From Henckelia pumila (taxonomy: Eukaryota; Streptophyta; Magnoliopsida; Lamiales; Gesneriaceae), in the NCBI RefSeq assembly GCF_033568475.1, contig NC_133123.1, positions 2,604,001 through 2,668,000 of the forward strand: DNA of 64,000 nucleotides, given 5' to 3'. Below, one piece after another: positions 31,180 through 53,742 of the stretch. Positions within the stretch are counted from its first letter, which is position 1; each line of letters opens with the position of its first letter. The translations under genes were made by a program, and so were the position numbers. The notes under the pieces were generated by a model that saw only the letters and a list, made by a program, of their open reading frames with translations, was not told the DNA's origin and made no database searches.

Positions 31180-34044
31180 TGTAACACCCGGTATTTTCCA
31201 TACGTAAATTCGCATGCATAATTAAGAAAATAATTATTTAAATTTATAAATTATGGGTTAAATATTTTTATGTGTTATTATGTGAATTACCTGCATGATT
31301 TAAATTATTTTAGCATTTAACCCATGATTTTTGGAAAGTTTAGATTTTTAAGAAATTTATTATTTTGATTGCGTAGACGGGACAGTGGACGAACGAGATA
31401 CCAAATTTTAAGCCAAAAATATTTTTATGAATTTTGTGAACCTTAAAATAATATTTTAAGGTATTTTGTCAAGAAAATGTTTGTATTTAATTATATATTA
31501 TTTAAGAGTTGATTTTTTTTTGCAAAAATTAGCCCCTTTATTGGCTTTTATTAAATTTTAAAATTTGCCTATTATTTTATTTCGGAATTTAGGAATTTAT
31601 ATCAGATTATTATGTATTTTAAGAGTTTAAAATTTTATATATTATGTTATATTATCTACCTAATTAGTTATATTATCTATTTAGCTTATATTTAAAGATT
31701 TTAATCATAATATCCTACCCAATCCCTCCCATATCTCACGTCTAACTCCCTCAGCCGCCTCCACCAGTTTCTTCCCACCTCCATCACGCCAATTAGCAGA
31801 AATCTTCAAACCTCCATAGCCAACTTTTGAAGGTTTTGTCAAGTTTTTCGTCCGATCGTCGTCCCGGAGTCCGTAGACGCAATAACCTTAGTTTTTATTC
31901 ATTAAGGCATATCTAAAACTTTTATTTGGCCACCATATAAGCTATTATTCATGCATAATATTTTCTTTTCAGATTCCATAAGAATATTTCGAAATTATGC
32001 GATGTTATTTAAGTTTGATGCATGTTTGAGTGTTTTCATGTCATAGCTCATGTTTTATTCAGCATGGCTCGGTCCAGGGGCTTGGGGCTCGGGTCAGAGG
32101 TGACTTAGGGTCCTAGGGAATCGAAACATGGTCGGGCTAAGGGCTGGAGTTGGCTGGGTTCAAGGCTGGTTCAGTTTTTGGTCCATAGTGGCGCAGCAGA
32201 TCGCGCAGGTTGAGCGAGGTAGGGAGATTGGCTCGTTCTCAAGCCACAGGGCGTGTTTTAGGCTGATTCCAGTTGGGTTAGAACCGTAAGCCAAAGAGGA
32301 AGGTATTACAGGTGGGCCTCTTGCCGGTGGTTGCCGGAGATGGGCGGACGAATGACCTGAAGTTTTTGGTTGCGCGCAGCGCGCGAGCAACGCGCGAGCA
32401 GAATAAGGGCTAGATTGTTTTGGGTCTTTCTCCTTCGTTAGGGCTCGGTTTGGGCTGGTTTTTAGCTTGTTGGAAACGTCTTAAAGTGTGCTAGGTTTAG
32501 GCTATGGTTTCATGGCCAAAGGTAGCCGTAGTTGGCTGGCCGAAGGCGAGCAGCAGAACTGCTCGCCCAGCCGATAGAACAAGGGAAGAGGGCTACAGGT
32601 TTGGGGTTTTCTGGGGGTTTCTAGTTTGGGTTTGGTCCTGGGTTGGGTCTGGGCATCTGGTCGGGTCTAGGGTGTAAGTGGGTTGGGTCAGGTAGGTCCG
32701 GGTCTGGGCTAGGTTGGCCGGGCTCGAGTATTTTAATTTTTAAGTGACTTATGTTTTAATTGAGTTTTTGGGCTAATTAATTAGAAATAAAATTATTTGG
32801 GTCACTAAATAATTTTATTTGGGCTTCAAATAATTTATTTAAGTCAACCCAATTAATTTTATGGGCTTGGGAGCCCATGAGAATTATTGGGCCAGTCTTT
32901 GGGCTTTTGGGCTCATTGGGCCAGGATAGGTGGTTATTGGGCATAGGTTGTCTTATTGAGCCAGGAATGTCTTATTGTGTTTGAATAATTTATTTGGGCT
33001 TAAATTTAAGTTAATGGGCTTAAGTTAAGTTAATGGGCCAGTCTTATAATTTATGGGCTGAAGTCTAAGGGGCCAGCAGTCTGGACCGAAACCATGAAAA
33101 AAATTCCTAAGTCTGAAATATATATTTAATTATTTTAGTGCATGAAAATATTTTAAGTATAAGTATATATGTTATGACAAAACAATTAAATATATATTAC
33201 GGACAGATTTTCAGTGCATGCATACATGAAATTTTATATGATTATGATTATGTATGTGTTGAGCAATAAAAAAAAATATTTACAGGCGAAAATTGATGTA
33301 GTGTGACATAAGAGTGGTTATCCACCATATGATATATGCGGTAGTTTACTACCATAGGAGGTGATTTATCACCGCCACGTACGTTGGTTTAAAAGACTGA
33401 TCAGTCGACATAGTAAGGTCACACTTACGGATATGACCATAGATTTTTAAAGAATTATGATGCTCAACTATGTTATGTATGAAAAAAAGTATGATTATGC
33501 GTAAGATTATGATTCAGCATTTATGTTATGCAAATGTTTTACTGCATGTTCATGTATCATGTATATGTATTAGTATGATTTATGTGATGCATTATTTTAA
33601 ATCTCGATATTCAAGTTTAGGCATGTTGAGCCTCTAGGCTCACTACGCTTATATGGTGCAGGTGAGGCAGATGATTTTTATGTAACTCCAACTGGTGGTG
33701 ATGACGTATGAGCTCACGGAACAGTGGCCCCGTGACCGTTGCAGTTTTGAGTCATTATTTTAGTTGCAACTATTTTATTTATGATGAGTTTTAAGCAAGT
33801 TACATTATATTTATTTTCATTGTATGCAAACTTTTATTAAATTGTTTAGACAGTATTATTTTAATGCATGACTCAAACATTTAATTTATTAAATGTTGCA
33901 TAGTTTTATTTAAGCTAATTCTTTTTAAATCTATTTAATGTTATACATATATGTATGGGCATGTATGTATATTATTTTTATACTTAGCATTATTTAAAAA
34001 AAAACAATTTCCGCACTTAAGTTTTTAGAGTAATGGTCGTTTCA
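31180..34044 (+). repeat. Gypsy chromovirus-type 5' LTR (2.87 kb)
   Basis: Starts TGTAACACCCGG and ends GGTCGTTTCA, directly followed by an initiator-Met primer site. It interrupts the Athila-like ORF. No coding capacity. GCGCGCAGCGCGCG-type sequence lies near 32370-32400. Preceding 5 bp: GTCAA; the partner duplication is not in view. Confidence 0.8.
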
Positions 34045-34046
34045 AT

Positions 34047-34058
34047 TGGTATCAGAGC
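34047..34058 (+). other. Primer-binding site (initiator tRNA-Met)
   Basis: TGGTATCAGAGC, two bases after the LTR end. Confidence 0.9.
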
Positions 34059-35142
34059 ACGGTCCTTGGAGGGTATCCATCTGCCACGTGAAGCTCAAAA
34101 ATCTCACTATCGGTCTGTAAGTTTTAAATGTTTTATTATGTTTTATCAGGAGTATATGTTATGAATTAAGACTTTATGTTAGAAAAGTTTAAAATACTTA
34201 GTTATGCATTGCGATTTACGTGAAGAATGTGTGGTGTTACAGTATATCCCCGAATCGTGTTTTACGACAGAATGACCACAAGGAATTTTGAAATTTGGGA
34301 TTTAAGTTTAACATTTGAATTTTTGAAGTAACTTATTAATTTAAGTTAGCATGATTTCATGGGTGAGTTATTAAGAATATTGTGAGATTAGCACTTAATA
34401 ATATATTATAATGTAATTATTTAACTCGTGAATTTGGGATTTATGAGAAATTATCTCGGAACTATGGTTTACACGTATAACTTTAGAATTGTTGCTTGAG
34501 GTGAGAGTAGGATTCTTCGCAAGAAAGATTATTCAAGGGTTGTACAATTTTTCTGCTTTGATGAATTTAAAACGTTCCTTTTTAGAGGCTAGCATATACT
34601 TTTGGGAATTAAGTCACATTGTGTCAAATTATTAGTTGGGTTCAAAGATATCACATTGTCATTCATTTAACTATTAAGATTTTTCCTTTGACAAAGAAGT
34701 CATGATTTTTTTGGAGATGACATATATACCATAAGTTTATAGTATGATGATTTGTGGTTTTAAGTCTGTACTTTTAATTATATGAGGCATAAATTGATGA
34801 TATGTATGTTGTGCGTTAGGTTTTTGAATATTTGGGAATAAGAATAATGGTGGAGTTGGTTTGATAAAAACTTGGATAATCTTTGATAATATTTAAGGGT
34901 TCGTGTGGTTGGTGTTACCAAGTAAGTTGTATTGGGTTTGATGTTCAAGTCACTACGTTTAAATAAATAATATATTTGGGAACTTGTCAGCCTGACTCAT
35001 AGATGATGTGACAACTGAAGGATTAATGTGTAAATTTCATAGGCTTGTGTGATTGGTAAGGTAAAGCATAACACAATTGTTATAAATTTGGTTTCAATGT
35101 GGAGTATAATATAAGCTTTATCTATGAACTAAGAGTTTACGA

Positions 35143-35208
<66 letters not shown>

Positions 35209-35587
35209 GAGTGATTTGTTTGTTAAGAATTGAGTCGTTTGAGAATTTGGGTTGTTGGCTCCACGCACGTATTGGTAATTGAGGCACTTGGGAATAATCA
35301 CGAATCGGCGTGATGACTTGATATTATAATTGTTATCACGATACTTCCGTTTTACTTTGGGATTAATTGCATATGAGTATTTGTATTGATGTTATTTAAG
35401 TATCCTTGGGTTGTATAAATTTAAATTACGGGATCATTATATAGGAGTGTTCCCACCCAGATTTTTGTGATGCATGAGCTAAAAAGTACTAGCCTAAATT
35501 AAAGGGGAGGAATTGTGATGCATTATTATTTCAATTCAATGTAATTTATTGGGATATACTTGAGATTTCGAGGACGAAATCTTTTAT
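34059..35587 (+). other. Non-coding internal region of a non-autonomous gypsy element
   Basis: About 1.5 kb between a primer site and a polypurine tract with no gag or pol homology in any frame. It contains a (TA)n microsatellite and, near its end, the GAGGACGAAATC phrase typical of the 3' end of chromovirus internal regions. An extra PPT-like AAAGGGGAGGAAT lies at 35501-35513. Confidence 0.6.
35147..35205. repeat. (TA)n microsatellite
   Basis: Uninterrupted TA dinucleotides, about 29 units. Confidence 0.97.
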
Positions 35588-35601
35588 TAGAGGGGAGGAA
35601 T
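35588..35601 (+). other. Polypurine tract
   Basis: TAGAGGGGAGGAAT abutting the TG of the next LTR, as at the 3' end of an LTR-element internal region. Confidence 0.75.
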
Positions 35602-36008
35602 TGTAATGCCCCGAGAAATACCCAATTAAATAATTTATGAAGAATTGGAATTTAATTCTATGTTTCATAAATTAAAAGATTGAAATTGAAGTTTATAATG
35701 AACAAGGGCTGAATTGCAAGATTTGAAGAAGTTCAGGGACTAATATGCAAAAAGTTGTATGGGACCCCATGGAATAAATGATTAAGGGAGAGTTGTCTCC
35801 CTAATCATTCTCCCATTTTTATTCTTCTTCCTCATTCATCCAAGAGGAGAGAAGGGATACTCCATCTCCATTGTTGTTCTTCAAGCTCCGATCCAAGAAA
35901 ATCCAACCGATAGAATTTTGATTCGGACACGGTTTTGCGATCCTCGCAACAAGAGCTACGTTTCTACGTAAGTATGATTAAATTCTACCAAGTTCTAATT
36001 TTGAGATG
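35602..36008 (+). repeat. G2 LTR, left part (interrupted by G1)
   Basis: Starts TGTAATGCCCCGAG. The LTR is broken at 36008 by G1 and resumes at 58730 after the AGATG duplication; the joined length is about 2.05 kb. It is preceded by a PPT and followed, past 60371, by a primer site, so it borders internal regions on both sides. Confidence 0.8.
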
Positions 36009-38088: not shown

Positions 38089-40583
38089 TCATCCGAATAG
38101 CTCCGGAAATCGCTGTCTCATATCAGATTCTGTCTCCCAAGTCGCTTCCTCGACGCCGTGACGGCTCCACTAAACTTTCACCAACGGAATCAAATTGGTT
38201 CTGAGTTGCTTTTCTTTCCGATCAAGGATCTGAATCGGTCGTTCAAAATAGCTCAGGGTCTCGTCTAACTCGGCTTCGTCAGGCTGAAGGATATGAGAAA
38301 TATCTGGTTGATACTTTCGCAGCATAGAGACGTGAAAAACGTCTTGAATACCAGATAAAGACGGAGGAAGTGCAAGTCTGTAGGCAAGATCGCCTATCTT
38401 CTCGAGAATCTCGTACGACCCGATGAATCTCGGAGATAACTTTCCTCTCTTACCGAATCTGACAGTGCCTCTGAAAGGTGAAATCTTCAGAAAGACTCGG
38501 TCTCCCTGATCAAAACTCAGAGGTCTACGCCTGACATTCGCATACTTTGCCTGTCTATCTTGAGCTGACTTCATTCTGGTCTGAATGATCTTAACCTGCT
38601 CTGCCATATCTCTAAGCATCTCCGGTCCCAAATCTGGTGACTCGGACAATTCATCCCAAAACAACGGAGATCGGCACTTCTTACCATACAAAGCCTCAAA
38701 AGGCGCCATACCGATACTCGCTTGGAAGCTGTTGTTGTAAGAAAACTCGACAAGAGGCAAAGAATCCTGCCAACTAGTGCCAAAGTCTAGCACTACCGCT
38801 CGCAGCATATCCTCTAACATCTGGATAGTCCGCTCTGACTGTCCATCGGTATGAGGATGATAAGCTGTACTCAGATGCAATCGGGTACCAAGTGCCACCT
38901 GAAGACTGTGCCAGAAGTGAGAAGTGAATCTAGGATCTCTGTCTGAAACGATCGACTTCGGCACACCATGCAGTCTCACAACATTGCTAACATACAACTC
39001 AGCCATCTGATCATGACGATACGTCATCCTGTACGGAATAAAACACGCAGACTTCGTCAATCGGTCGATCACTACCCAAATGGCGCGCATCCTCGAACGG
39101 ATCGTGGTAGCTTCGTGACGAAATCCATGGAAATGTGATCCCACTTCCATTCAGGAACAGATAAGCTGTGCAACAGACCTCCTGGTCGCTTCCGTTATGC
39201 TTTTACTTGCTGACAGTTCAAACACCGAGATACAAACCTCGCAACATCGCCCTTCATTCTCTTCCACCAGAACTGACTCTTCATCGTTGTACATCTTACG
39301 ACCTCCAGGATGAACACTGAACCAACTGCAATGAGCATCTCGAAGAATACGCTGTCTCAACTCCGAAATATCAGGCACAACAATGCGGTTATTCACAAAC
39401 AAGACGTCATCTCTAACCTATAATTCTGACTGATGCTCAGATCTGACTTTCTCTACTGAAACCTGAATGCTCGGCTCAGACTTCTGTGCTTCTCTGATTG
39501 CAATAAACAACTCCGGTTCGGCTTGAATAGCAAACACTCTGATAGTATCCCTATCTGTTTCAAACTCTAAACCAGAAGTGCAACAATCATCAATCAACTG
39601 AGAAACACCAATACTAGTAAGAGATAAAGAACATAGCTTTTGGCTCAAGGCATCTGCAACTGCATTCGACTTCCCCGGATAATACTTGATTTCACAGTCG
39701 AAATCCTTCAACAGGTCTAACCATCTTCTCTGTCTCATATTCAGCTCTTCCTGTGAAAACAAGTACTTAAGGCTCTTATGGTCAGAAAAGATCTCGAAAG
39801 ACTCACCATAAAGATAGTGACGCCAGATCTTCAGAGCAAAGACGATCGCAGCTAGTTCAAGATCATGAACCGGATAACGAGTCTCGTGCGGTTTCAGCTG
39901 TCTCAATGCATACGCTACCACATGCTTATGCTGCATAAGAACACAACCCAAGCCTTGGTTAGAAGCATCACAATAGACTGTGAAACCTCCAGTACCCTTC
40001 GGAATAGAAAGAATTGGAGCACTGGTCAGTCTCCTCTTCAGATCAACAAAGCTAGCCTCACAATCTGCAGTCCAGACAAAAGGCGCATTCTTCTGAGTCA
40101 GCTGGGTAATAGGCTTGGCAATAGACGAGAAACCCTTGATGAAACGACGGTAATAACCAGCTAAACCCATGAAGCTTCGGATCTCCGGCACTGAAGTAGG
40201 TCTAGGCCAATTCATAACCGCTTCAATCTTGTTGGGATCGACAAAAATCCCCTCTTCAGAAATAATATGACCGAGAAAGACAACTCAATCTAACCAGAAT
40301 TCACACTTAGACAGCTTGGCAAACAACTGCTCAGCTTGTAAATATGGAGTACGGTCCTCAAGTGCTCTGCATGGTCAGTACGGTTCTTCGAGTATATAAG
40401 AATATCATCGATGAAAATAATGACGAACTCATCTAAATAATGCTGAAAGATACGGTTCATCAAACCCATAAAAACCGCTGGAGCGTTAGTCAAACCGAAC
40501 GGCATGACTATAAACTCAAAATGACCACCTCATTCTGAATGCGGTCTTAGGAACGTCTTCCTCTCGCACTCTCAACTGGTGAT
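38089..40583 (-). pseudogene. G1 pol, downstream part: RT end, RNase H, integrase, chromodomain
   Basis: Minus strand, in order: RT with catalytic FIDD ([13 protein letters not shown], about 40400); RT/RNase H ([51 protein letters not shown]); integrase (SVHPGGRKMY; core with [21 protein letters not shown] and GQSERTIQ); and a C-terminal chromodomain-like WSRHGVEEATWETE ending at 38089. It is damaged: frameshifts near 40220-40290 and 39150-39420 and an in-frame TAG near 38170 before the chromodomain. AL separates it from the upstream RT part at 52503. Confidence 0.9.
40579..40583. repeat. Target-site duplication of AL (GTGAT)
   Basis: GTGAT here and at 52503-52507, exactly outside the AL LTRs. 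Confidence 0.95.
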
Positions 40584-41112
40584 TGCTACAACTTAAATTG
40601 TAATTCACCCAAGTGTAGGTTGTCTGCAAGTAATATACTCGTGAGTACGAGATCGATCCACGGAGAGGATGTTGTAAGTTTAATTTTAGCAATAATATAT
40701 TATAGATGAAAATATTATTATAAAACTTCAAATACACAAATTATAAAATTGTCAAGGTTTCAAAGGTTCATTGTTGGTTTATTTAAGATTGCTAAATAAA
40801 AATAAATAAAAAAAACTAAAATAAAAATAAACATAAAAGAACAATGAAATATTTAAACAAGTATATCATATAATATAGTTCCCACTATATTAATATCAGA
40901 TTAACCGATATTTAATACATGGTACCCATAATATATATATAGATGAATAAATATGAACATAAAAAGAACAATTAAATATTTAAACAAGTATATCATATAA
41001 TATAGTTCCCACTATATTAATATCAACCGATATTTAATACATGGTACCCATAATATATATATAAATGCATAAATATAAATTGACATAAAAGTAAATGTTA
41101 GATCAAATCACA

Positions 41113-41164
41113 ATATTTTATTTAGAACAACCGGCAGAGCCACGCTATCGTCTAAATAAAATAT
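41113..41164. repeat. AL LTR stem-loop 1
   Basis: Perfect 13-bp stem ATATTTTATTTAG (41113-41125) with CTAAATAAAATAT (41152-41164), 26-nt loop containing a small GGC-AGA-GCC hairpin. The second copy lies 204 bp away at 41317 with compensatory changes. Also at 51236-51287 in the other LTR. Confidence 0.85.
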
Positions 41165-41316
41165 ATGACTTTATGTTAGATGTGATAAAGTAAATGTTAG
41201 TTGCGGAAAATTAAAAGTTAGATGCGAGAAAGTAAATGTTAGTTGCGGAAAAGTAAATGTTAGTTGCGATAAAGTAAAAGTTAGATGCGAGAAAGTAAAT
41301 GTTAGTTCAAATCACA

Positions 41317-41368
41317 ATATATTATTTAGAACAACCGACAGTGTCATGCTATCGTCTAAATAATATAT
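41317..41368. repeat. AL LTR stem-loop 2
   Basis: Perfect 13-bp stem ATATATTATTTAG (41317-41329) with CTAAATAATATAT (41356-41368), 26-nt loop containing GAC-AGT-GTC. Compared with copy 1, one stem pair and one loop-hairpin pair changed on both sides, preserving pairing. Also at 51440-51491. Confidence 0.85.
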
Positions 41369-42378
41369 ATGACTTTATTATAAATAGATACATATATTTA
41401 TAGTATATAATTATTGTAGTAATTATTGTATCATATTTGACAACAAATCAAGGTAACCACATTCAAGGTACCAAGCATTTGATGCAAATAGATAACAACA
41501 AATCATCCAAAATTATACCTACAAATAAAGATCAATTAGTAAAAATAAAAATAGAAAAGAAAAGAATATACAAAATATAGACAATCTTACTTGACCAACA
41601 ATGAAACCTTTTCACCTTGACATAAAAAGATTTAGCTTTCCATGAACATGAAACTCAAGAATAAAGATAAAAGAAATTTCATACTTGAACTTGAGAAACT
41701 TGCACACTCAAACTTTTATTCTCACACACACAATATTTATTTTACAAATGAAGAATTCTCTACACTCTTGCACACTACAAAGCTTATACAACACATCTAT
41801 TTATAGGCCAAATGAGAGCAAGAGTCCAAGGCTCATTAAATGTGAAATAGTAAAGTTGGTGGGTGCTTGTCTCCTTGAATGTCAATACCATGACCCAACT
41901 TTAATTGGCATGTTTGATGCCTTAGACCACCGATTCAGCCTTTCTTTTCAACATAGAACACGTAGGATATTTTGTGTAGATGTGTTTGGACAACTAATTC
42001 ACCCCTTTTGGATAAAATATGAAATACTTATGATATTTTTACTCCAAGCTGGTCATAGTAAAAGTAAATCTATCTCCATTTTGATGTTTTATTATTTTGA
42101 TCATCTTAATGAAGTTTTTGGAATTTTTTGTCTTCTACAAAGTTGAAGATGCCTCTTTTGTGATTCTACAGGTTTTGAGATTACTCCATTATGACCACTG
42201 TAGCTTGAGTATTTTATTTTTACCAAACCTGCGCAAACCGTAAAATACAACATTTTAGTAAAACATTTAAATATAAACACATAACACTAAAATAATACAA
42301 CTTCATAATTTTAATTAAACTTAAATTTTAAAACACACTTTTTAACATATAAATAATTACAAATTTTAAGTTTCATCA

Positions 42379-42390
42379 CACCCCCAAACC
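42379..42390 (-). other. AL polypurine tract
   Basis: Minus strand GGTTTGGGGGTG immediately before the 3' LTR. Confidence 0.85.
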
Positions 42391-43810
42391 GGCTAATTAC
42401 TAGTCCCTTAGTAATAAAATATCATAAAATATCATAAAATCACAAGTTAGATTTTTATTCCTTAATATATATATTCAAATTTGCAAACTTTGAAATTTTA
42501 AAAACACACTTGTGAGGAGATCATATGTTTATTTATAAATCTCATTATCAACCAATATATTAATATGTAATTGGATGGGCTATACATATATATTTCACAC
42601 AATATCAAAATATTAAATATATATAATTTTTTTTTTACATAAATATTTTCTAAAAACTTTGAGAATAATATAATTAAAAGGATAATAGAAATCATTTTCA
42701 TAACATGTATATCATCAGGAATATTAATGTAAAAATCTCAACTCCATATTCTCTCGGGTTAAAGTATTTCATATATAGCTGTTTTTCACTCATGGAGTTG
42801 GAAGAAAATTATACACTCTTTGAAAATGGCTAGTAAAGCAGACAATCAAATAACCTAATATTGAAAATAAGATAGGATGATTTACAAAGAATAAACCCAT
42901 TTTTTTTTTTGTCTTTTTTTTTTTGTTTTTTTTTTTTTTGCTTGGCTGCAAAATTGTTTTTACATAATCAAATACCTCCAATAAACTTTGAAAATGTAAC
43001 ATTTTTTTTTCAAAGTTTATTTATTTTTTTTATTTTTTATGAGGTAAATCTATTACATTAATAATTATAGTAGAGATATTAATACTCTACATCTTTACAA
43101 TCAAACTTCAAACAACTTTGCAGCCAATTTTCATTTTTCTTTTTTTTTCTTTTTTTTTTCAAAATGGGTTTAATCTAGTAATCAACCATTTCTTAATAAT
43201 CAATAAAAGCTTATAAGTTGTTTTCTCAATTCTTACCCCTCACTCACAAAATTTATGTGAGTAACTATTGCACTTTTACAAATTAATTCCCTCAATTATA
43301 CATGTTATTATTTATTCAATCAATATCACTTTAATTATATACTCATAAAAGTTTTAGAAAATATGTATTTGAAAACACACAATTATATATTATTTATAAC
43401 TTATATCCCATCAATTATATATTTTCTATTAAATTGATAAAAAGAAGAATAAATAAACATCTATACAAAAAGACTTCATTTTCTTAGTAGTTTGCAATTT
43501 AAATATATACGGAATATTAAAATCTAATCTATTGTGATAAGATGATAAATAAAAACTAATGCGTGTCAGGAGTTTTTGACTCCTTACTCTGCCATTGAAA
43601 AAGAAAAATAAATATTATTATAGAAATATATATTTTTTTAAATTTTAATTTTAATTTTTTTTTTTAGAGATAAACCCTCCCCCAAACCTGAATATGACAT
43701 TGTTTTTAATTTTTTTTTTTAAGAAAAATAAAGAGCACATGATGAAAGAGATATCACCTGGAATTATTGAAGATGAGGAACAAACACAAACTATTTCATG
43801 ACATGTTGAA
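42391..43810 (-). other. AL 3' untranslated region
   Basis: 1.4 kb, AT-rich, between the LOG stop and the PPT, with no coding potential. It contains a nested foldback (42892-43172) with A-rich tracts on the element strand and a small hairpin AGGAGTTTTTGACTCCT at about 43568-43584. Confidence 0.7.
42892..43172 (-). repeat. Nested foldback in the AL 3' region
   Basis: Three concentric inverted pairs: outer 12 bp (42892-42903 with 43161-43172, perfect), middle 15 bp (42942-42956 with 43113-43127, one A/C mismatch that becomes G-U in the sense RNA), inner 14 bp around ATAAACTTTG (42981-42990) and CAAAGTTTAT (43011-43020). Homopolymer-rich tracts separate outer and middle stems on both sides. Confidence 0.7.
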
Positions 43811-44449
43811 TCAATGATCCAGTTTTCTTTTCTTACTGGTTGGTTGAGACCAATTGATCTTTGTTATAGCTGAATCAGGTTGATGAACAAAAGCTTGAAG
43901 ATCATCAATTAATTGGTCTTCATTCGAAGCAGAGATGAGCATCCTTCGTGAATTTTCTGAAATAAAATTTTGTTCCACGGCTACATCGAGAAAAGTCAAC
44001 AAACCATCATAATAGTTATTGATATTCAACAAGCCAACAGGTTTATTATGGATATTAAGTTGTGCCCAAGAAACAACATGAAAAATTTCTTCTAAAGTAC
44101 CAAAACCACCAGGTAAGGCAATAAAAGCATCAAAATTTTCTATCATTTTAGTTATTCTCTCGTACATTGATGAAACTTTCAACTCTTCCCCAACCGTAAC
44201 ACCTGTAATATTTCCTTCAGCTAAAGCTGTAGGAATAATACCCAAAACCTGGCTACCTCCAAGATGAGCTGCTGTTGAAATAGATCCCATTAACCCAATA
44301 TTGCCTCCTCCGTAAACCAAGTGAATTTTTCTCTCTGCTAACTTTTTTCCAAGATTAATTGCTGCATCAACAAATATTTCATTCTTTCCAGTATTAGAAC
44401 CACAAAAGACACAAATATTTTTCAATTTTTGTGAAGAAGATCCTGTCAT
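43811..44449 (-). CDS. LOG: LONELY GUY-type cytokinin riboside 5'-monophosphate phosphoribohydrolase carried by AL
   Basis: LOG enzymes release active free-base cytokinins from their riboside monophosphates in one step. This ORF is 212 residues, normal plant LOG length, and uninterrupted. Seen: N-terminal ICVFCGSNTG (12-21), Rossmann-type YGGGNIGLMG (46-55), the conserved Arg-98 in YERITKM, the signature PGGFGTLEE (113-121), and WAQLNIHNKPVGLLN (128-142). The C-terminus has KKRKLDH, a possible nuclear-localisation patch. Host plant LOG genes have several introns; this copy has none, consistent with capture from an mRNA. It lies 189 bp after the cysteine-rich ORF, same strand. A TATAAAAT box at 44492-44499 could give it its own promoter. 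It has diverged from typical host LOGs (SMYERITKM rather than the usual MHERK context) but keeps the catalytic signature. Confidence 0.92.
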   Translation of the reverse strand: MTGSSSQKLKNICVFCGSNTGKNEIFVDAAINLGKKLAERKIHLVYGGGNIGLMGSISTAAHLGGSQVLGIIPTALAEGNITGVTVGEELKVSSMYERITKMIENFDAFIALPGGFGTLEEIFHVVSWAQLNIHNKPVGLLNINNYYDGLLTFLDVAVEQNFISENSRRMLISASNEDQLIDDLQAFVHQPDSAITKINWSQPTSKKRKLDH

Positions 44450-44491
44450 GTTTTTTTCTTTTCTTTTAAAAAATATAGAGAGAGTTGAGTG

Positions 44492-44499
44492 ATTTTATA
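44492..44499 (-). promoter_or_regulatory. Possible core promoter of the AL LOG ORF
   Basis: TATAAAAT on the minus strand about 43 bases upstream of the LOG ATG, followed by a pyrimidine-rich CACTCAACTCTCTCT leader. The arrangement resembles a plant core promoter; activity is an inference. Confidence 0.4.
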
Positions 44500-44638
44500 A
44501 GGAAAACAAGGAATAAGACAGAAATAGGAATACAGATGTGAACAAAATGATAAAAATAGTAAAAAAAATAATATATAATAATAACATGCATGCGTATAAA
44601 CAGTGATGTGATTGTGGCTCACAGTGTTCCTTCAATAT

Positions 44639-45190
44639 TTATGAGTCGAGGGTTGGCTTACCATCCAATTTTCTTATAAATTGGCAAATAGGGTCTTTTT
44701 TTGTCAGATTCCCAAGACCATCACCATGACGCTGCGCTTGGAATAGTTTCCATAAACGGAGAAGTTGACCTTGTACATCTCCACTAGAATGCGTCTCAAG
44801 AGTCAATGAGATATCATCCAATGACTCTTTACTCAGCCCATTCTTAATGAAATCAATTTTATCTTCTCTATTTGTGGAAACATATCCCAAAGATCTGCAT
44901 TGTCTATTACAAGTCCATCTGGCACAATTATGACAAACATCTAACCTTTTAGCCCTTCTTTTCTTCGCATAGGTACTTTTTCCTAGTCCAGACATATTTC
45001 GAACAAGTAAGAATTTTGGAACTTCACCACCTAATCGAACCTTGGCTTCAATTATAAGACGAATATCCTCCGGGATTCCTTTTTGCATAAGCATTCTCAA
45101 TCTTTCACATCTGCCTTCATAAATCATTCTCAGAACTTTTTTAGAAACAGATGGAAAATATTTACCAAGTTTTTTGATAGCTTCATCCAT
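44639..45190 (-). CDS. Basic cysteine-rich protein resembling carlavirus nucleic-acid-binding proteins
   Basis: 183 residues, open and intact, 146 bp after the pol stop and upstream of LOG. A basic stretch KKRRAKR (76-82) is followed after three residues by a cysteine cluster C86-x2-C89-x4-C94-x3-C98 (CHNCARWTCNRQC). The order of S-x-Y-A, basic KRRA, five residues and CxxC matches, from family knowledge, the Viral_NABP group of carlavirus and allexivirus cysteine-rich proteins, several of which suppress RNA silencing or act in the nucleus. The N-terminus (IPEDIRLIIEAK) also fits that family. The 85-residue C-terminal extension is unfamiliar. It is not an Athila env-like protein: no signal peptide or membrane span. 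Function is inferred from resemblance only. Confidence 0.65.
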   Translation of the reverse strand: MDEAIKKLGKYFPSVSKKVLRMIYEGRCERLRMLMQKGIPEDIRLIIEAKVRLGGEVPKFLLVRNMSGLGKSTYAKKRRAKRLDVCHNCARWTCNRQCRSLGYVSTNREDKIDFIKNGLSKESLDDISLTLETHSSGDVQGQLLRLWKLFQAQRHGDGLGNLTKKDPICQFIRKLDGKPTLDS

Positions 45191-45336
45191 AATATATATT
45201 TATATATATATATATTCAATTATTTTGGGAAATTGAAATAAAACCGACTGAAAGTAGTCACGGAGTACCGTTATCCGCCACTTAACCGGGAAGTGAACTC
45301 AATTCTGCAAAAATAAAATAAAAATATAAGTAACAA
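45191..45336 (-). other. AL pol-to-ORF spacer
   Basis: 146 bp containing an AT-only run (about 45191-45222) just upstream of the cysteine-rich ORF, which could act as a TATA region, and a conserved-looking CCGGTTAAGTGGCGG stretch in the position of the Athila pol/env spacer. Confidence 0.5.
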
Positions 45337-48243
45337 TTAAGTTGGATCATATAAATGCATAAACTCTTCATTAAGAACTTCATTTTCTATAAACGGTTTA
45401 AGTCTTTGCCCATTAACTTTAAATACATTATTATTTTTAGGATTTTCAACATCAACAGCACCATGAGGATAGACAAATTTAACAATAAATGGTCCAGACC
45501 ATCGCGATCTAAGTTTTCCTGGAAACAAATGCAAGCGAGAATTATAAAGTAAAACTTTTTGTCCGATTTCAAAAGATTTTCTCATAATATTTTTATCATG
45601 AAATGCTTTTGTTTTATCTTTATAAATCTTTGCATTTTCATATGCATCATTTCTTAATTCTTCTAGTTCATTTAATTGCAATTTTTTTGATTTAGATGCA
45701 TCATCTAAATTAGTATTAAACGCTTTAATTTCCCAATAAGCTTTATGTTCAATTTCAACAGGTAAATGACAATGCTTTCCAAAAACTAATCTATATGGTG
45801 ACATCCCCAATGATGTTTTAAATGCAGTTCTATATGCCCATAATGCATCACTTAATCTTAAAGACCAATCTTTTCGATTTGGATTGACTGTTTTTTCCAA
45901 AATTTGTTTTATTTCTTTATTTGCAAGTTCAACCTGACCATTCGTTTGAGGGTAATATGGAGTAGAGACTTTATGTGTAATACCATATTTTCTTAACAAC
46001 GAAGAAAATGATTTATTTATAAAATGACTTCCCCCATCACTTATTATAGCTCTAGGTATTCCAAATCGACTAAAAATATTTTCTTTCAAAAATTTTATCA
46101 CAACTTTATGATCATTAGTTCTACATGCAATTGCTTCAATCCATTTTGAAACATAATCGACAGCTACTAAAATATAAGTGAATCCAAAAGATAATGGAAA
46201 TGGACCCATAAAATCTATTCCCCAACTGTCAAATATTTCAATAATCATGATTGGATTTAAAGGCATCATGTTTCGTTTTGAAATTGAACCCATTTTCTGA
46301 TAATTTTCACAAGATTTGCAAAATGAATGTGTATCTTTGAATAAAGAAGGCCAATAAAATCCACATTGAAAGATTTTTGCAGCTGTTTTCTTTGACGAAA
46401 AATTACCTCCACATGCCTCAGAATGACAAAATTTAATGACACTACTTACCTCATTGTCGGGTATGCATCGTCGAAAAATTTGATCAGGACAATACTTAAA
46501 CAAATAAGGATCATCCCAATAAAATTTTTTGACCTCTTTCAAGAATTTATTTTTATCTTGTGAACTCCAATGAGAAGGCATTTTATTTGTCACAAGAAAA
46601 TTTACAATATTAGCAAACCAAGGCATAGTAGTAGCATAAAATAGTTGATCATCCGAAAAATTTTCATTTATTGGTATTTCATTTTGAGATGATTCAGAAA
46701 TTATTCTTGATAAATGATCGGCTACTACATTTTCTTTTCCTTTTTTATCTTTTATTACAAGATCAAATTCTTGTAACAACAAAATCCATCTTATTAATCT
46801 CGGCTTAGCATCTTGTTTATTTGATAAATATTTTATGGCAGAATGATCAGTGTAAACAATAGTAGTAGAACCAATTAAATAGGATCGAAATTTATCTAAT
46901 GCAAACACTACTGAAAGTAATTCTTTTTCAGTTGTTGAATAATTGATTTGAGCACTATTTAAGGTTCTACTTGCATAATAGATCACATAAGGTTTACCTT
47001 CTTTTCTTTGTCCTAACACGGCTCCTACAGCATAATCACTTGCATCACACATTAATTCAAATGGTAAAGACCAATCAGGAGGTTGTAAAATAGGTGATGT
47101 AGTTAAAAGATTAATTATTTTTTTAAAAGCAGTTTCACATTCTTGAGTCCATTCAAATTGTGCATCTTTTGTTAAAAGATTTGAAATTGGTTTCGATATT
47201 ATGCTAAAATTTTTTATAAATCTTCTATAAAATCCCGCATGACCCAAAAATGATCGAATTTCTTTGATCGTGTTTGGTGATGATAGATTAGCAATAACAT
47301 CAACCTTAGCTTTATCAACTTCAATTCCTTTTTCAGATATGACATGCCCTAACACAATTCCGGATTTAACCATGTAGTGACATTTTTCCCAATTTAAAAC
47401 AAGATTTTTTTCTTCACATCTTTTTAAAACTTCTTCCAAATTTTTAAGACAATTTTCAAATGAGTTTCCAAAAACAGTTATATCATCCATAAAAACTTCC
47501 ACAAATTCTTCAATCATGTCACTAAAAATACTTAGCATGCATCTTTGAAAAGTAGCCGGGGCATTACATAAACCAAATGGCATTATTTTAAAAGCAAAAG
47601 TTCCGAACGGACAAGTGAAAGTAGTTTTTTCTTGATCTTCTAATGATATTGGTATTTGATAATACCCCGAATACCCATCAAGAAAACAATAATAAGGATT
47701 ACCTGCCACTTTCTCTAAAATTTGATCTAAAAATGGTAACGGAAAGTGATCTTTTCTAGTTGCATCATTTAATTTTCTATAATCAATGCACATACGCCAA
47801 CTAGATGGAATCCTAGCTTGTAATAATTCTCCCTTTTCATTTTTTATAACAGTGATGCCTGATTTTTTTGGTACTACTTGTGTTGGACTTACCCATTTAC
47901 TATCCGAGATTGGATAAATAATTCCGGCATCTAATAGTTTTAAAACTTCATTTTTAACAACTTCTTTCATGTGTGGATTTAATCTTCTTTGTGGTTGTTG
48001 ATATGTTTTAGCATTTTCTTCCAAGTGAATTCTATGTGTGCAGATTAAAGGATTTATACCTTTTATATCTTGCAAAGTCCATCCAATTGCATTTTTGTGT
48101 TTTTTAAGTAGTGTTATTACATCTTCTTCTTGTTTTGGTAAGAGGGTAGAAGATATTACAATAGGATATGTTTGATTTTCACCAAGAAAAGCATATTTTA
48201 GTTCTATTGGCAAGGGTTTTAATTTCAAGTTTTGGATGATCAT
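45337..48243 (-). CDS. AL pol: Athila reverse transcriptase, RNase H and integrase
   Basis: 968 codons without a stop. Domains: RT (from about residue 85: [60 protein letters not shown], catalytic FMDD in [10 protein letters not shown]); RNase H ([41 protein letters not shown]); integrase zinc-binding region (H and C residues in FCHSEACGG and [10 protein letters not shown]), DDE core ([36 protein letters not shown]), and a C-terminal domain. Gypsy order (integrase last), Athila style. It overlaps the gag-protease frame by 65 bp in the +1 frame. All catalytic residues that I can identify are present. Confidence 0.95.
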
Positions 48244-50626
48244 TTTCTTTTACTTCTTCAAGTTCATTAATTTCTTCAAATAACTTTGATTTAAAAACAT
48301 TTTTTGAATCAAAACTTTCCACTAAACAAACTTCAGATTGTTGATTTAAGTTTTCTTGGTGTATATTTTCTTCCACAATTTTTTCTATTGCATTATCATC
48401 TTCATCTTCATTAATACTTGGTTGTTTACATAAATTGAACACATTAAGTTCTAAAGTCATATTTCCAAAAGACAATTTCATTATTCCATTTCGACAATTA
48501 ATTAAAGCATTTGAAGTTGCTAGAAATGGACGTCCCAATATTACTGGAATTTCGTTATGTACTTCTATTGGTTGTGTATCCAAGACAATAAAATCCACAG
48601 GATATATGAATTTATCGACTTGAACTAACACATCTTCTACGATACCTCTAGGTATTTTGATTGACCTATCGGCTAGTAAAAGAGTGACAGATGTAGGTTT
48701 TAAATCTCCCAACTTAAGCTTTTCATAAACTGAATAAGGAATTAAATTCACACTTGCTCCCAAATCTAACAAAGCTTTTTTAATTTTATTTTTTCCAATA
48801 ATACATGAAATTGTTGGACAACCGGGATCTTTATATTTCAAGGTAGAATTATTTTGAATAATAGAGCTTACTTGCTCCGTTAAGAATGCTTTCTTCTTTA
48901 CATGCAATTGTCTTTTCACAGTACATAAATCTTTTAAAAACTTTGCATAAGAAGGCACTTGTTTAATAGCATCTAATAATGGAATATTTATTTTTACTTG
49001 TTTAAAAACTTCATAAATATCAGAATCATTTTTTTGTTTTTTATTATTTACTAATGCATGAGGAAAAGGAACATGTTTATTTATTTTATCATCAATTTTC
49101 TTATTTTTAGGACTCAAAGCATCATCTTTCTCAAAAGTATCAGGATTTGAATCCTTACTCGTTGAGTTTAATTGATCTTTGTTTTCATCACTATATGGAT
49201 CATTAACTATTTTACCACTTCTAAGAGTAATAACAGATTTTACTTGATCAAATTTTTCTTGATTTTGATTTTTAGGATTAGGTTGTGGTTGAGATGGAAA
49301 TTTTCCTTTTTCATGAATATTAAGTGCAGATGCAAATTTTGCAAGAGTTTCTTTCAAATCATTCATAGATTGAATGTTTTGAATATTGATAGACTCTTGC
49401 TTTTGAATGTATGCATGAATTTCATCTTCAAAATTTTTTCTTGGAGGTGGGATATAAGGAGCATAACCTTGATGATTTTGGTTATTTTGAAAAGGTTGTT
49501 GTAAAGGTTGTGCATTATTATCGTTCCTCCAACTAAAATTGGGATGATTTCTCCAACCAGGATTGTATGTTTGTGAAAAAGGATCTAATGTTGGTTTTTT
49601 AAAATTGTTAACATAATTGGCTTGTTCATGGAGACATTCTTTAAATGAAGGCAAAGTAGGACAATGTTTTGTAAGATGATCATGTGTGTCACATATATGA
49701 CAAACAATTTCTTGAACACTTTTTAATTGATCACTCTTTTTCATTTCTAATGACTCGATTTTTCTTGCTAAAGATGCAAGTTTAGCTTGAATATCTACAT
49801 CATCTTTAAGATGATAAATACCACCCCCATTTGTTGAATTATTGGTTTTACTTGGTGGTTCAATTGAGCCTATATTATCCCAATTTTGAGCATTTTCTGC
49901 TAATGACTCCAAATATTCCATAGCTTCATTTGGGTTTTTATCTTCAAAAGTTCCATTACACATGAATTCTATCATTTGCCTATCTTTAGGTATTAAACCT
50001 TCATAAAAGTGAGAAATTATTCTCCATATTTCAAAACCATGATGTGGGCATGTATTAAGTAACTCTTTATATCTATCCCAACATTGATAAAATGTTTCCC
50101 CTTGTTTTTGAGAAAAAGTTGTAATTTGTCTTTTAAAAGAGTTTGTTCTATGGGAAGGAAAAAACTTTTTTAGAAATTGTTGTTGCATTTCTTCCCATGA
50201 TCTTATTGAACTTGATCTCAAATTTTGCAACCATGTTTTAGCTTTATCTTTTAAGAAAAAAGGGAAAAGCTTTAATCGAACAGTATCCATGCTACAATTT
50301 TGATCATTATAAGTGTTGCAAACCTCCTCAAATTCTCTTAAATGCAAATATGGATTTTCAGAATCTAAGCCATGAAAATTTGGTAAAAGTTGAATGACTT
50401 GTGGCTTAAAATTGAAATTAGATGCATCAGGAGGAAAAACTAAACAAGATGGTGTACTAGTTCTTATTGGATTCATATGGTGCCTAAGTGTTCTTGGTTG
50501 TTCATAATCTTGATGATGATTATTATTATTATTATCATCTTGATTATTAGAATTATCGTCCATGTTTAAAATATTTTCAGTTACTCGAACAAGTCTACCA
50601 CTTTGTTTACGACTCCAAACAATCAT
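48179..50626 (-). CDS. AL gag-protease (Athila type)
   Basis: 815 codons, open. Likely true start at the [10 protein letters not shown] methionine a little inside the frame. Features: asparagine-rich N-terminus; the Athila gag signature [12 protein letters not shown] and [22 protein letters not shown]; retrotransposon gag domain ([18 protein letters not shown]); a zinc-knuckle-like [14 protein letters not shown]; and a retropepsin-like protease with [28 protein letters not shown] and [11 protein letters not shown]. It ends 65 bp into the pol frame. One A more than the expected single-frame sequence near 48221-48226 separates the two frames, so pol needs a +1 shift, re-initiation, or a corrected copy. 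Confidence 0.93.
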
Positions 50627-50682
50627 ACAATTAAAAACAACATACTATTTACATAATAACAAAATTAAACTTAATTTATACC

Positions 50683-50700
50683 TCCCCGGCAACCGCGCCA
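50683..50700 (-). other. AL primer-binding site (tRNA-Asp type)
   Basis: Minus strand TGGCGCGGTTGCCGGGGA, 6 bp inside the 5' LTR, as in Athila elements. Confidence 0.9.
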
Positions 50701-50706
50701 AAAACT

Positions 50707-52502
50707 TGCTACAACTTAAATTGTAATTCACCCAAGTGTAGGTTGTCTGCAAGTAATATACTCGTGAGTACGAGATCGATCCACGGAGAGGATGTTGTAA
50801 GTTTAATTTTAGCAATAATATATTATAGATGAAAATATTATTATAAAACTTCAAATACACAAATTATAAAATTGTCAAGGTTTCAAAGGTTCATTGTTGG
50901 TTTATTTAAGATTGCTAAATAAAAATAAATAAAAAAAACTAAAATAAAAATAAACATAAAAGAACAATGAAATATTTAAACAAGTATATCATATAATATA
51001 GTTCCCACTATATTAATATCAGATTAACCGATATTTAATACATGGTACCCATAATATATATATAGATGAATAAATATGAACATAAAAAGAACAATTAAAT
51101 ATTTAAACAAGTATATCATATAATATAGTTCCCACTATATTAATATCAACCGATATTTAATACATGGTACCCATAATATATATATAAATGCATAAATATA
51201 AATTGACATAAAAGTAAATGTTAGATCAAATCACAATATTTTATTTAGAACAACCGGCAGAGCCACGCTATCGTCTAAATAAAATATATGACTTTATGTT
51301 AGATGTGATAAAGTAAATGTTAGTTGCGGAAAATTAAAAGTTAGATGCGAGAAAGTAAATGTTAGTTGCGGAAAAGTAAATGTTAGTTGCGATAAAGTAA
51401 AAGTTAGATGCGAGAAAGTAAATGTTAGTTCAAATCACAATATATTATTTAGAACAACCGACAGTGTCATGCTATCGTCTAAATAATATATATGACTTTA
51501 TTATAAATAGATACATATATTTATAGTATATAATTATTGTAGTAATTATTGTATCATATTTGACAACAAATCAAGGTAACCACATTCAAGGTACCAAGCA
51601 TTTGATGCAAATAGATAACAACAAATCATCCAAAATTATACCTACAAATAAAGATCAATTAGTAAAAATAAAAATAGAAAAGAAAAGAATATACAAAATA
51701 TAGACAATCTTACTTGACCAACAATGAAACCTTTTCACCTTGACATAAAAAGATTTAGCTTTCCATGAACATGAAACTCAAGAATAAAGATAAAAGAAAT
51801 TTCATACTTGAACTTGAGAAACTTGCACACTCAAACTTTTATTCTCACACACACAATATTTATTTTACAAATGAAGAATTCTCTACACTCTTGCACACTA
51901 CAAAGCTTATACAACACATCTATTTATAGGCCAAATGAGAGCAAGAGTCCAAGGCTCATTAAATGTGAAATAGTAAAGTTGGTGGGTGCTTGTCTCCTTG
52001 AATGTCAATACCATGACCCAACTTTAATTGGCATGTTTGATGCCTTAGACCACCGATTCAGCCTTTCTTTTCAACATAGAACACGTAGGATATTTTGTGT
52101 AGATGTGTTTGGACAACTCATTCACCCCTTTTGGATAAAATATGAAATACTTATGATATTTTTACTCCAAGCTGGTCATAGTAAAAGTAAATCTATCTCC
52201 ATTTTGATGTTTTATTATTTTGATCATCTTAATGAAGTTTTTGGAATTTTTTGTCTTCTACAAAGTTGAAGATGCCTCTTTTGTGATTCTACAGGTTTTG
52301 AGATTACTCCATTATGACCACTGTAGCTTGAGTAATTTTATTTTTACCAAACCTGCGCAAACCGTAAAATACAACATTTTAGTAAAACATTTAAATATAA
52401 ACACATAACACTAAAATAATACAACTTCATAATTTTAATTAAACTTAAATTTTAAAACACACTTTTTAACATATAAATAATTACAAATTTTAAGTTTCAT
52501 CA
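50707..52502 (-). repeat. AL 5' LTR (right copy)
   Basis: 1796 bp, near-identical to 40584-42378 (one A/C substitution in GGACAACT[A/C]ATTCACC and a 1-bp indel in an A-run seen by eye). TATA box TATAAATAG at 51920-51928. Followed by the GTGAT duplication at 52503-52507. Confidence 0.95.
51920..51928 (-). promoter_or_regulatory. TATA box of the AL 5' LTR
   Basis: TATAAATAG on the minus strand, followed by ATGTGTTGTATAAGC. U3 is about 570 bp and the transcribed leader unusually long, about 1.2 kb to the LTR end. Confidence 0.7.
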
Positions 52503-53742
52503 GTGATAACCTGACCTCAGATCAATCTTAGAGTAGACAGAAGAACCCTGCAGTTGATCAAAAAGGTCATCTATTCGGGGTAAAGGATACCTGTTCTTAA
52601 CTGTAGCCTGATTCAATTGGCGGTAGTCGATACAGAGCCGGATAGAACCATCCTTCTTCCGAACAAAAAGCACAGGAGCACCCCAAGGCGACACACTAGG
52701 TCTGATGTATCCCTTGGAAATCAAATCCTCAAGCTGCTCCTTCAACTCTCTCAATTCAACAAGTGCCATACGATAAGGAGCTTTTGAAATAGGTTGAGTA
52801 CCTGGCACTAAGTCAATACTGAATTCAACCTCTCAAATGGGTGGCAATCCAGGAACATCTTTCGGAAACACATCAGCAAAATCTCTAACCACAGGTAAGT
52901 CAACCAAAGATGGGCTAGATTTCAGTACATCAATCGCATAAACCAAAAATCCTTCTGCACCTCTCTGTAACAAACGAGTCATAGATAACACTGAAATCAA
53001 CGGAATTCTAGGTCGAGAACCCTACCAAAGAATTTCCACTCGTCTGCCATTTCAGGTCTGAACCTGAAAACCTTCAGAAAACAATCAACTGTTGCCCTGT
53101 ACTTGGTCAAAGCATCTATACCGACAATACAATCAAAATCTGAAAACCCAAGCACAATACAGTCGAATTCTAACAAATTTCCCTCAAAAAAAAGTTCACA
53201 GTTCTTGACTAGTCTGACAGAAACAATTCCTCCACCCAAAGGTGAAGTAACAGCTACTACTGTAGGAAACAATTCAGTCGGCAAAACATGCAATAACACA
53301 AATTTCTCAGAGATAAAGGAATGGGAAGCACCTGTATCTATCAAGACATAAGCAGAATAATCAAAAATCGAACAGTTACCTGCTATAACATCATCAGGTG
53401 CTGCTTGAGCCTGATCCTCTGTCAGAGCAAAGACTCGTGCTTGCTGTCTCGGAGGCTGGTTCGCACTAGTGCTACCTCCCTGTCTGTTTTGCTGTTGCTG
53501 AGGTTGGAAAGAGTGCACTGCAGACAACTGCCTCTCCGATTGAGCTGCAGGTCTAGACGAACTCCCACTCTGAGCTCTATCTCTGTTACGTTGTGGGCAC
53601 ACCTTAGAGAAGTGTCCCGGTTGCTGACATGTGTTACAATTACCGAAGACTCCCACACACTGATCCGGTGAGTGTCTTCCCCCACACTTGCTGCAGTACA
53701 TGGCTGAAGATCCAGAAATCTGTCCTGAACCAAATTGCTTCG
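52503..53742 (-). pseudogene. G1 protease and first part of RT
   Basis: Minus strand. Zinc knuckles CSKCGGRHSPDQC and CNTCQQPGHFSKVC (about 53590-53700); an aspartic protease with DTGASHSFI (about 53310-53350); then RT from [18 protein letters not shown] through [27 protein letters not shown] to LRSGYH, where AL cuts it. A stop or frame change lies near 52830-53000. It continues at 40583 on the far side of AL. Confidence 0.88.

Follow-up and report, generated by a model that had tools for sequence, protein, structure and literature searches.

Extra open reading frames (ORFs) are common in plant gypsy retrotransposons and their function is mostly unknown. That one of them can be LOG, the family of cytokinin-activating enzymes, is already known: in the part of PMC9289625 available to us, which cites Steinbauerova 2011, a LOG/YgdH domain is reported in gypsy consensus sequences of Citrus sinensis and C. 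clementina and, without the n5 filter, of Populus trichocarpa. On the viral side, the accessible part of PMC12172455 counts silencing suppressors among the cysteine-rich proteins (CRPs) and describes p12 of chrysanthemum virus B as a transcription factor causing hyperplasia. The present work concerns a window of 64,000 nucleotides (the whole stretch of DNA that was analysed; Henckelia pumila, contig NC_133123.1, positions 2,604,001 to 2,668,000), whose minus strand carries at 40584-52502 a complete-looking Ty3/gypsy element with a CRP ORF and a LOG ORF between pol and the 3' long terminal repeat (LTR). The core of this element is ordinary and its 3' module is unusual. We regard it as a young, autonomous-looking Athila-type element whose env-like slot would encode two accessory proteins; that both are nuclear and directed at the host is a reading to which we give an even chance.

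Pairing of CRP and LOG across copies

The window genome (885 Mb) was searched with LOG and CRP as separate queries, and each gave at least 150 scored matches (the best 150 of 466 candidates for LOG and of 506 for CRP, both lists favouring high scores). Within these best-150 lists, 115 of 150 LOG matches are paired with an upstream CRP match on the same strand and at a near-constant offset, and no stop is listed for 137/150 LOG and 126/150 CRP matches. Eighty copies drawn from the LOG list were then fetched. More than 90% of LOG is covered in all 80 (78 without stop) and more than 90% of CRP in 79 (61 without stop), these stops being taken from tblastn alignments, in which frameshifts go unregistered; according to a 6-mer test for a single open frame, LOG is open in 78/80 copies, CRP in 69/80 and both in 67/80. 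At ten loci from the LOG search, the window included, CRP adjoins LOG in all ten. The CRP-LOG pair is a family trait of the element. An earlier note on this stretch, made from the letters alone, had seen two intact ORFs after pol; both recur in constant order, further copies carrying the two are many, and an assembly error, which it had considered as a possible source of the module, is ruled out by these paired copies.

A 113-aa canonical LOG query, by which the host's own LOG genes were sought, gave 150 scored rows at 46-49% identity, among which none was recognised as such; the rows are taken to be element copies. Nine of the 35 unpaired CRP matches adjoin, as judged by eye, a LOG match from this canonical query.

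A single LOG lineage with a modified pocket and tail

The LOG ORF matches PF03641 at 4.9e-38 and carries the PGGxGTxxE motif and the catalytic Arg/Glu by which the LOG family is recognised. Its AlphaFold model (pLDDT 85.8) has the LOG fold, with AtLOG3 (2a33) as the best match in the PDB (E 6.1e-22, TMt 0.95 and 0.94 for two chains), and the LOG homologue announced by the earlier note is borne out by both the domain and the AtLOG3-like predicted fold. We compared it with an element-type set of 121 LOGs, made of the best 120 of 7939 matches to the window LOG and of P0242 from a second search, whose profile combined AtLOG3 and AtLOG8 with the element-type P0213 and P0186; the remaining rows of this second search gave a canonical set of 112 plant LOGs. 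The relatives of the window LOG are 56-88% identical to it. Together with the window copy, the element-type LOGs form one clade (122 tips, support 0.91) with no canonical member, and an IQ-TREE analysis of a 62-sequence subset recovers the element-type clade at UFBoot 98, the canonical one at 97 and, at 99, the subclade devoid of the pocket residues.

Residue numbers hereafter follow CgLOG, for which the accessible part of PMC4979012 gives Arg99 and Glu122 as catalytic, Met96, Lys100 and Glu121 as adenine contacts, and Met96, His97, Lys100, Glu125 and Trp129 as the prenyl site. While H97, K100 and E125 are present in 112/112 canonical LOGs, the window LOG has Y/I/H at these three positions, and because of this difference we do not class it as a cytokinin LOG. 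Among the element-type LOGs, R99 is retained in 116/121, E122 in 118/121 and both together in 113/121; T119 and W129 are each found in 120/121. K100 and E125 are lost together in 113/121, with Met, Ile or Leu in place of K100 and mostly Gln or His in place of E125, and the same 8/121 keep both; five of these eight are named Xanthoceras gene models, and all eight lack the LxLxL motif considered below. Since the catalytic Arg/Glu are retained and K100/E125 replaced, catalysis looks kept and base recognition altered in the element-type LOGs.

These substitutions bear directly on the function put forward by the earlier note, namely that LOG is a working cytokinin-activating enzyme which keeps host cells dividing or meristem-like and thereby brings the element to the germ line. 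The intact fold, the PGGxGTxxE motif with its catalytic Arg/Glu, and the retention of M96, T119, E121 and W129 in the window LOG speak for such an enzyme; against it, the two residues invariant in the canonical set are both replaced in the window copy and in 113 of its 121 relatives, and alanine at AMP-contacting residues nearly abolished the activity of CgLOG in the experiments accessible in PMC4979012. The cytokinin reading of the element LOG appears weakened accordingly, and we now consider it unlikely.

The C-terminal tail separates the two sets as well. Tail counts were made on 114 element-type LOGs of 200-225 aa: a basic cluster lies in the last 25 residues of 108/114, versus 2/112 canonical LOGs, and LxLxL occurs in the last 12 residues of 98/114, versus 0/93 canonical LOGs of the same length range and 0/112 of any length. 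In a sample of 101 sequences chosen for having the tail, entropy is 0-0.40 at the leucine columns and 1.2-1.45 at the intervening positions, for a protein mean of 0.93. EAR repressor motifs come in two standard forms, of which LxLxL is one (PMC6479872, as far as accessible). The pathogen effector HaRxL21 binds TOPLESS through a C-terminal EAR motif (PMC7446885, likewise in part). The subclade of the window LOG carries the basic tail only.

The cysteine-rich protein

The CRP matches two viral families above their curated cut-offs, PF05515 Viral_NABP (1.2e-5, 25.9 bits vs 23) and PF01623 Carla_C4 (7.2e-5, 23.1 bits vs 20.9), in agreement with the resemblance to carlavirus nucleic acid-binding proteins (NABPs) first noticed from the letters. 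A basic KKRRAKR stretch is followed by a CX2CX4CX3C cluster. Across an alignment of 59 sequences (the window's and 58 homologues), Viral_NABP is matched by 55/59 and Carla_C4 by 53/59, the four cysteines are retained in 54-58/59 and the basic residues 76-79 and 81 in 56-59/59; nine columns are invariant. A classical env was considered for this third ORF and rejected, the Pfam matches making it a CRP.

When the low-confidence structure model of the CRP was compared by Foldseek with BFVD, ranks 1-8 were all flexivirus proteins with low TM-scores, none at E<=0.001, and six of these eight bear the name of a silencing suppressor or of a nucleic acid-binding protein. The 17 organism-named BFVD rows up to rank 20 are all flexiviruses. 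A scan of viral contigs for CRP found no relative among 203 pattern matches, and the corresponding scan for LOG yielded a single locus, on a viral contig of 37 kb, whose LOG is 40% identical.

One may wonder whether these two proteins serve the element itself, with neither directed at the host. The CRP would then package the RNA or act as its chaperone, in the manner of a nucleocapsid, and LOG would tune nucleotide pools for reverse transcription. A basic protein with a cysteine cluster does adjoin pol, and nucleoside monophosphates are the substrates of LOG-fold enzymes (PMC4979012, in the accessible part); the C-terminal LxLxL of most LOG relatives would be superfluous for nucleotide metabolism, however, and the best-ranked viral structures for the CRP, though the similarity is weak, mostly bear the name RNA silencing suppressor. 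We hold this explanation to be quite unlikely.

Sequence constraint on CRP and LOG

For the selection test, the window was joined to 80 copies; of these 81 sequences, six below 96% identity were dropped, which left 75. Singleton variants look neutral, with omega-like ratios of 0.89 for integrase, 1.09 for CRP and 0.98 for LOG. Variants found in at least two copies have probably passed through active elements, and their ratios are 0.35 for LOG and 0.55 for CRP; by one-sided Fisher tests of shared vs singleton variants (p 0.009 for LOG, 0.044 for CRP and 0.002 pooled), amino-acid changes are under-represented among the shared variants of both genes. The integrase control shows this only for variants in at least four copies (0.34; one-sided Fisher p 0.015). 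A dN/dS near 1 for both ORFs, which the earlier note had set against its own proposal, is thus not what the shared variants give, with the proviso that the copies were picked by LOG score. The deep conservation of CRP and LOG is the stronger argument, compared with these copy-level ratios.

Both kinds of evidence bear on the idea that CRP and LOG are merely transduced passengers, copied without function. Documented cases exist in which LTR elements captured host genes (PMC7264820, as far as accessible). On the other hand, the LOGs belong to one lineage whose catalytic residues and tail are conserved at 56-88% identity to the window LOG, amino-acid changes are scarce among shared variants, and most LOG matches counted above are stop-free (137 of the best 150 of 466, with their bias to high scores). 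We regard such a passenger status as very improbable.

Occurrence in other plants and previous reports

In Xanthoceras, gene model P0122 joins a gag-pro piece (55% over 38 aa) to a LOG, and in Rhamnella, P0087 joins an integrase end (77% over 111 aa) to a CRP. To judge by clade membership, the LOGs of this clade in other species probably lie mostly in elements. CRP P0017 and LOG P0191 come from the same source (jgi), both on contigs of 4511 bases, an observation which is suggestive only. Within the element-type clade we also found the LOG-named models P0147, P0198, P0129, P0206 and P0228 (Populus, Primulina, Melia, Parasponia). These five may belong to elements and have been mistaken for host LOGs in annotation, and some plant "LOG" annotations may, by extension, refer to element genes whose active site is altered.

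Literature searches on LOG/YgdH or carlavirus-type CRP in retrotransposons, and on EAR together with virus or retrotransposon, were judged mainly by titles and abstract starts: among the papers listed, only PMC9289625 shows LOG/YgdH in such elements, and no CRP pairing, pocket change or tail was found, nor was the single LOG lineage.

Anatomy and classification of the element

The element reads, in its own orientation, 5' LTR, primer binding site, gag-pro, pol, CRP, LOG, about 1.4 kb without any ORF of at least 80 aa in the ORF list, a purine-rich stretch and 3' LTR (Table 1). The two LTRs, aligned over 1797 columns, differ by one mismatch and one gap, and a 5-bp target duplication (GTGAT/GTGAT) lies at 40579-40583 and 52503-52507, inside another gypsy element whose pol matches are found on either side. 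At a substitution rate of about 1e-8 per site and year, so few differences would date the insertion to some tens of thousands of years ago. The gag-pro ORF also matches PF13650 at 8.2e-5, slightly below the cut-off of that model, and pol lies in a different frame with an overlap of 65 bp. These data uphold the recent and complete gypsy element seen at first reading.

Table 1. Features of the Henckelia pumila element, in element order (window coordinates)
Feature	Position	Strand	Remarks
5' LTR (element strand)	50707..52502	-	1796 bp; 99.89% identity to 40584-42378
Primer binding site TGGCGCGGTTGCCGGGGA	50683..50700	-	read from sequence
gag-pro ORF, 815 aa	48179..50626	-	PF03732 4.5e-20
pol ORF (reverse transcriptase, RNase H, integrase), 968 aa	45337..48243	-	PF00078, PF17917/PF17919, PF17921, PF00665
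3' splice-acceptor-like TTTTTATTTTATTTTTGCAG, between pol stop and CRP start	45305..45324	-	exact in 73/75; putative function
CRP ORF, 183 aa	44639..45190	-	PF05515, PF01623
TATA-box-like CTTATAAAATCACTC, upstream of LOG, then CT-rich stretch	44487..44501	-	exact in 74/75; putative promoter
LOG homologue ORF, 212 aa	43811..44449	-	one exon; tail KKRKLDH; PF03641
Polypurine-rich stretch CCGGTTTGGGGGTG adjoining 3' LTR	42379..42392	-	putative role
3' LTR	40584..42378	-	1795 bp; partner of 5' LTR

The primer binding site is of tRNA-Asp type, the end of plant tRNA-Asp matching it with one mismatch. Such a non-Met primer site is compatible with Athila: in the accessible part of PMC6317226, non-chromoviruses do not use tRNA-Met as primer, and an additional RNase H separates Tat from Athila. 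In the pol ORF, Pfam gives RT_RNaseH models only and no additional RNase H that would mark Tat, and no chromodomain appears among the Pfam matches at E<=0.001. ATHILA ORF-1 (PF03078) is not among the Pfam matches of the four ORFs, and it is present in just 16% of Athila elements according to the same source. Domain content and primer type fit Athila as defined there, so the Athila label of the first reading stands as an assignment by these features.

Turning to expression, the two signals upstream of CRP and LOG lie in some of the most conserved spacer windows (medians 88% and 91%); as the copies are young, the conservation of TTTTTATTTTATTTTTGCAG and CTTATAAAATCACTC is suggestive only. CRP would probably be expressed from a spliced transcript with its acceptor just 3' of pol, and LOG from a spliced transcript or from an internal, TATA-driven one.

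Each LTR contains a 21-bp tandem repeat array (41131-41347 and 51254-51470). Elsewhere in the window, 27470-29358 (plus strand) holds a gag-pro relative of the element at 32-39% identity, without matching pol nearby; it includes a 495-aa ORF without Pfam match and is perhaps a non-autonomous relative. The GC skew of 32001-36000 (0.30 and 0.27 in two 2-kb steps, G over C) is the highest in the window, and a 320-aa ORF at 11976-12938 (minus strand), a few kb from copia gag/pol ORFs, has a partial-profile cytochrome P450 match.

Proposed function and comparison with known systems

In the reading that we prefer, the CRP, whose basic stretch and C4 cysteine cluster recall betaflexivirus NABPs, would most likely be imported into the nucleus, bind nucleic acid there and weaken silencing or alter transcription. 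The LOG belongs to a single element-type lineage which kept the catalytic Arg/Glu, replaced K100 and E125 of the adenine/prenyl pocket in most members and gained a basic C-terminal tail, with an LxLxL motif of EAR type in most lineages. It would most likely be a nuclear protein, either a re-specialised nucleotide N-glycosidase or a nucleotide-binding protein, and its EAR-bearing relatives may recruit TOPLESS-type co-repressors and so dampen host responses. It is tempting to go one step further and to suggest that, across several eudicot families, a cytokinin enzyme captured by a retrotransposon lineage was remodelled as a nuclear effector (with catalysis retained, altered base recognition, a nuclear tail and, in most lineages, a TOPLESS-recruiting EAR tail) and associated with a silencing suppressor of flexivirus type. 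We put forward this wider scenario tentatively and find it, as a whole, rather doubtful.

Several observations weigh against the host-directed reading. In the selection test, the integrase control stands at 1.38 for variants in 2-3 copies and at 0.84 for those in at least two (p 0.46). The selection of the test copies by LOG score may deflate amino-acid changes in LOG. Variant density is 0.211 in LOG, 0.284 in integrase and 0.312 and 0.39 in the two spacers, and the 0.308 of CRP matches the 0.312 of the CRP-LOG spacer. As for the LOG pocket, H97 is retained in 50/121 element-type LOGs, the hydrophobic replacements of K100 could still accept a cytokinin nucleotide, and, in the accessible part of PMC11593424, plant LOGs with identical critical residues differ in activity, so that residues alone cannot settle the substrate. 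LxLxL is absent from the window LOG (tail KKRKLDH) and from its four nearest relatives, and a section heading of PMC7446885 states that the EAR motif alone is not sufficient for interaction with TOPLESS (TPL). Finally, the structure model of the CRP is poor (pLDDT 65, pTM 0.34), and the element setting of LOGs from other species is seen in one Xanthoceras gene model only.

If the wider scenario is nonetheless true, these elements would carry a two-part counter-defence module in the manner of viruses, and the target of the changed LOG pocket might be an immune signal derived from a nucleotide instead of cytokinin. While the extra ORFs of gypsy elements seldom disclose a function, the biochemistry of CRP and LOG is readable, and the question of whether retrotransposons possess host-directed effectors can therefore be put to the test directly, by routine assays of enzyme activity, localisation and interaction.

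Set beside the systems already described, the element shares with the Athila lineage (non-chromovirus, OTA) a single RNase H, the absence of chromodomain, a tRNA-Asp-type primer binding site and extra ORFs 3' of pol, and differs in what these accessory ORFs encode, namely a CRP of viral type and a LOG. Like the gypsy elements of PMC9289625 it has a LOG-type domain aboard; the accessible part of that report names the domain only, with no CRP partner, pocket change, tail, phylogeny or selection test. With the NABP/CRP of betaflexiviruses (carlavirus, trichovirus, vitivirus), the CRP has in common PF05515/PF01623 and a basic stretch next to the cysteine cluster, but it is encoded by a retrotransposon and is 183 aa long, versus about 70-170 aa in the viral entries, some of which are fragments. 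The LxLxL of most element-type LOGs is C-terminal, as is the EAR motif of effectors such as HaRxL21 (PMC7446885, in its accessible part), but it sits here on a retrotransposon-borne enzyme scaffold, is known from sequence and is lacking in the window copy. Lastly, the element LOGs resemble the canonical plant LOGs AtLOG3 and AtLOG8 in fold, PGGxGTxxE motif and catalytic Arg/Glu, whereas they form a separate clade, with a single exon in the window LOG, have K100/E125 replaced in most members and bear a basic tail to which most relatives of the window LOG add LxLxL.

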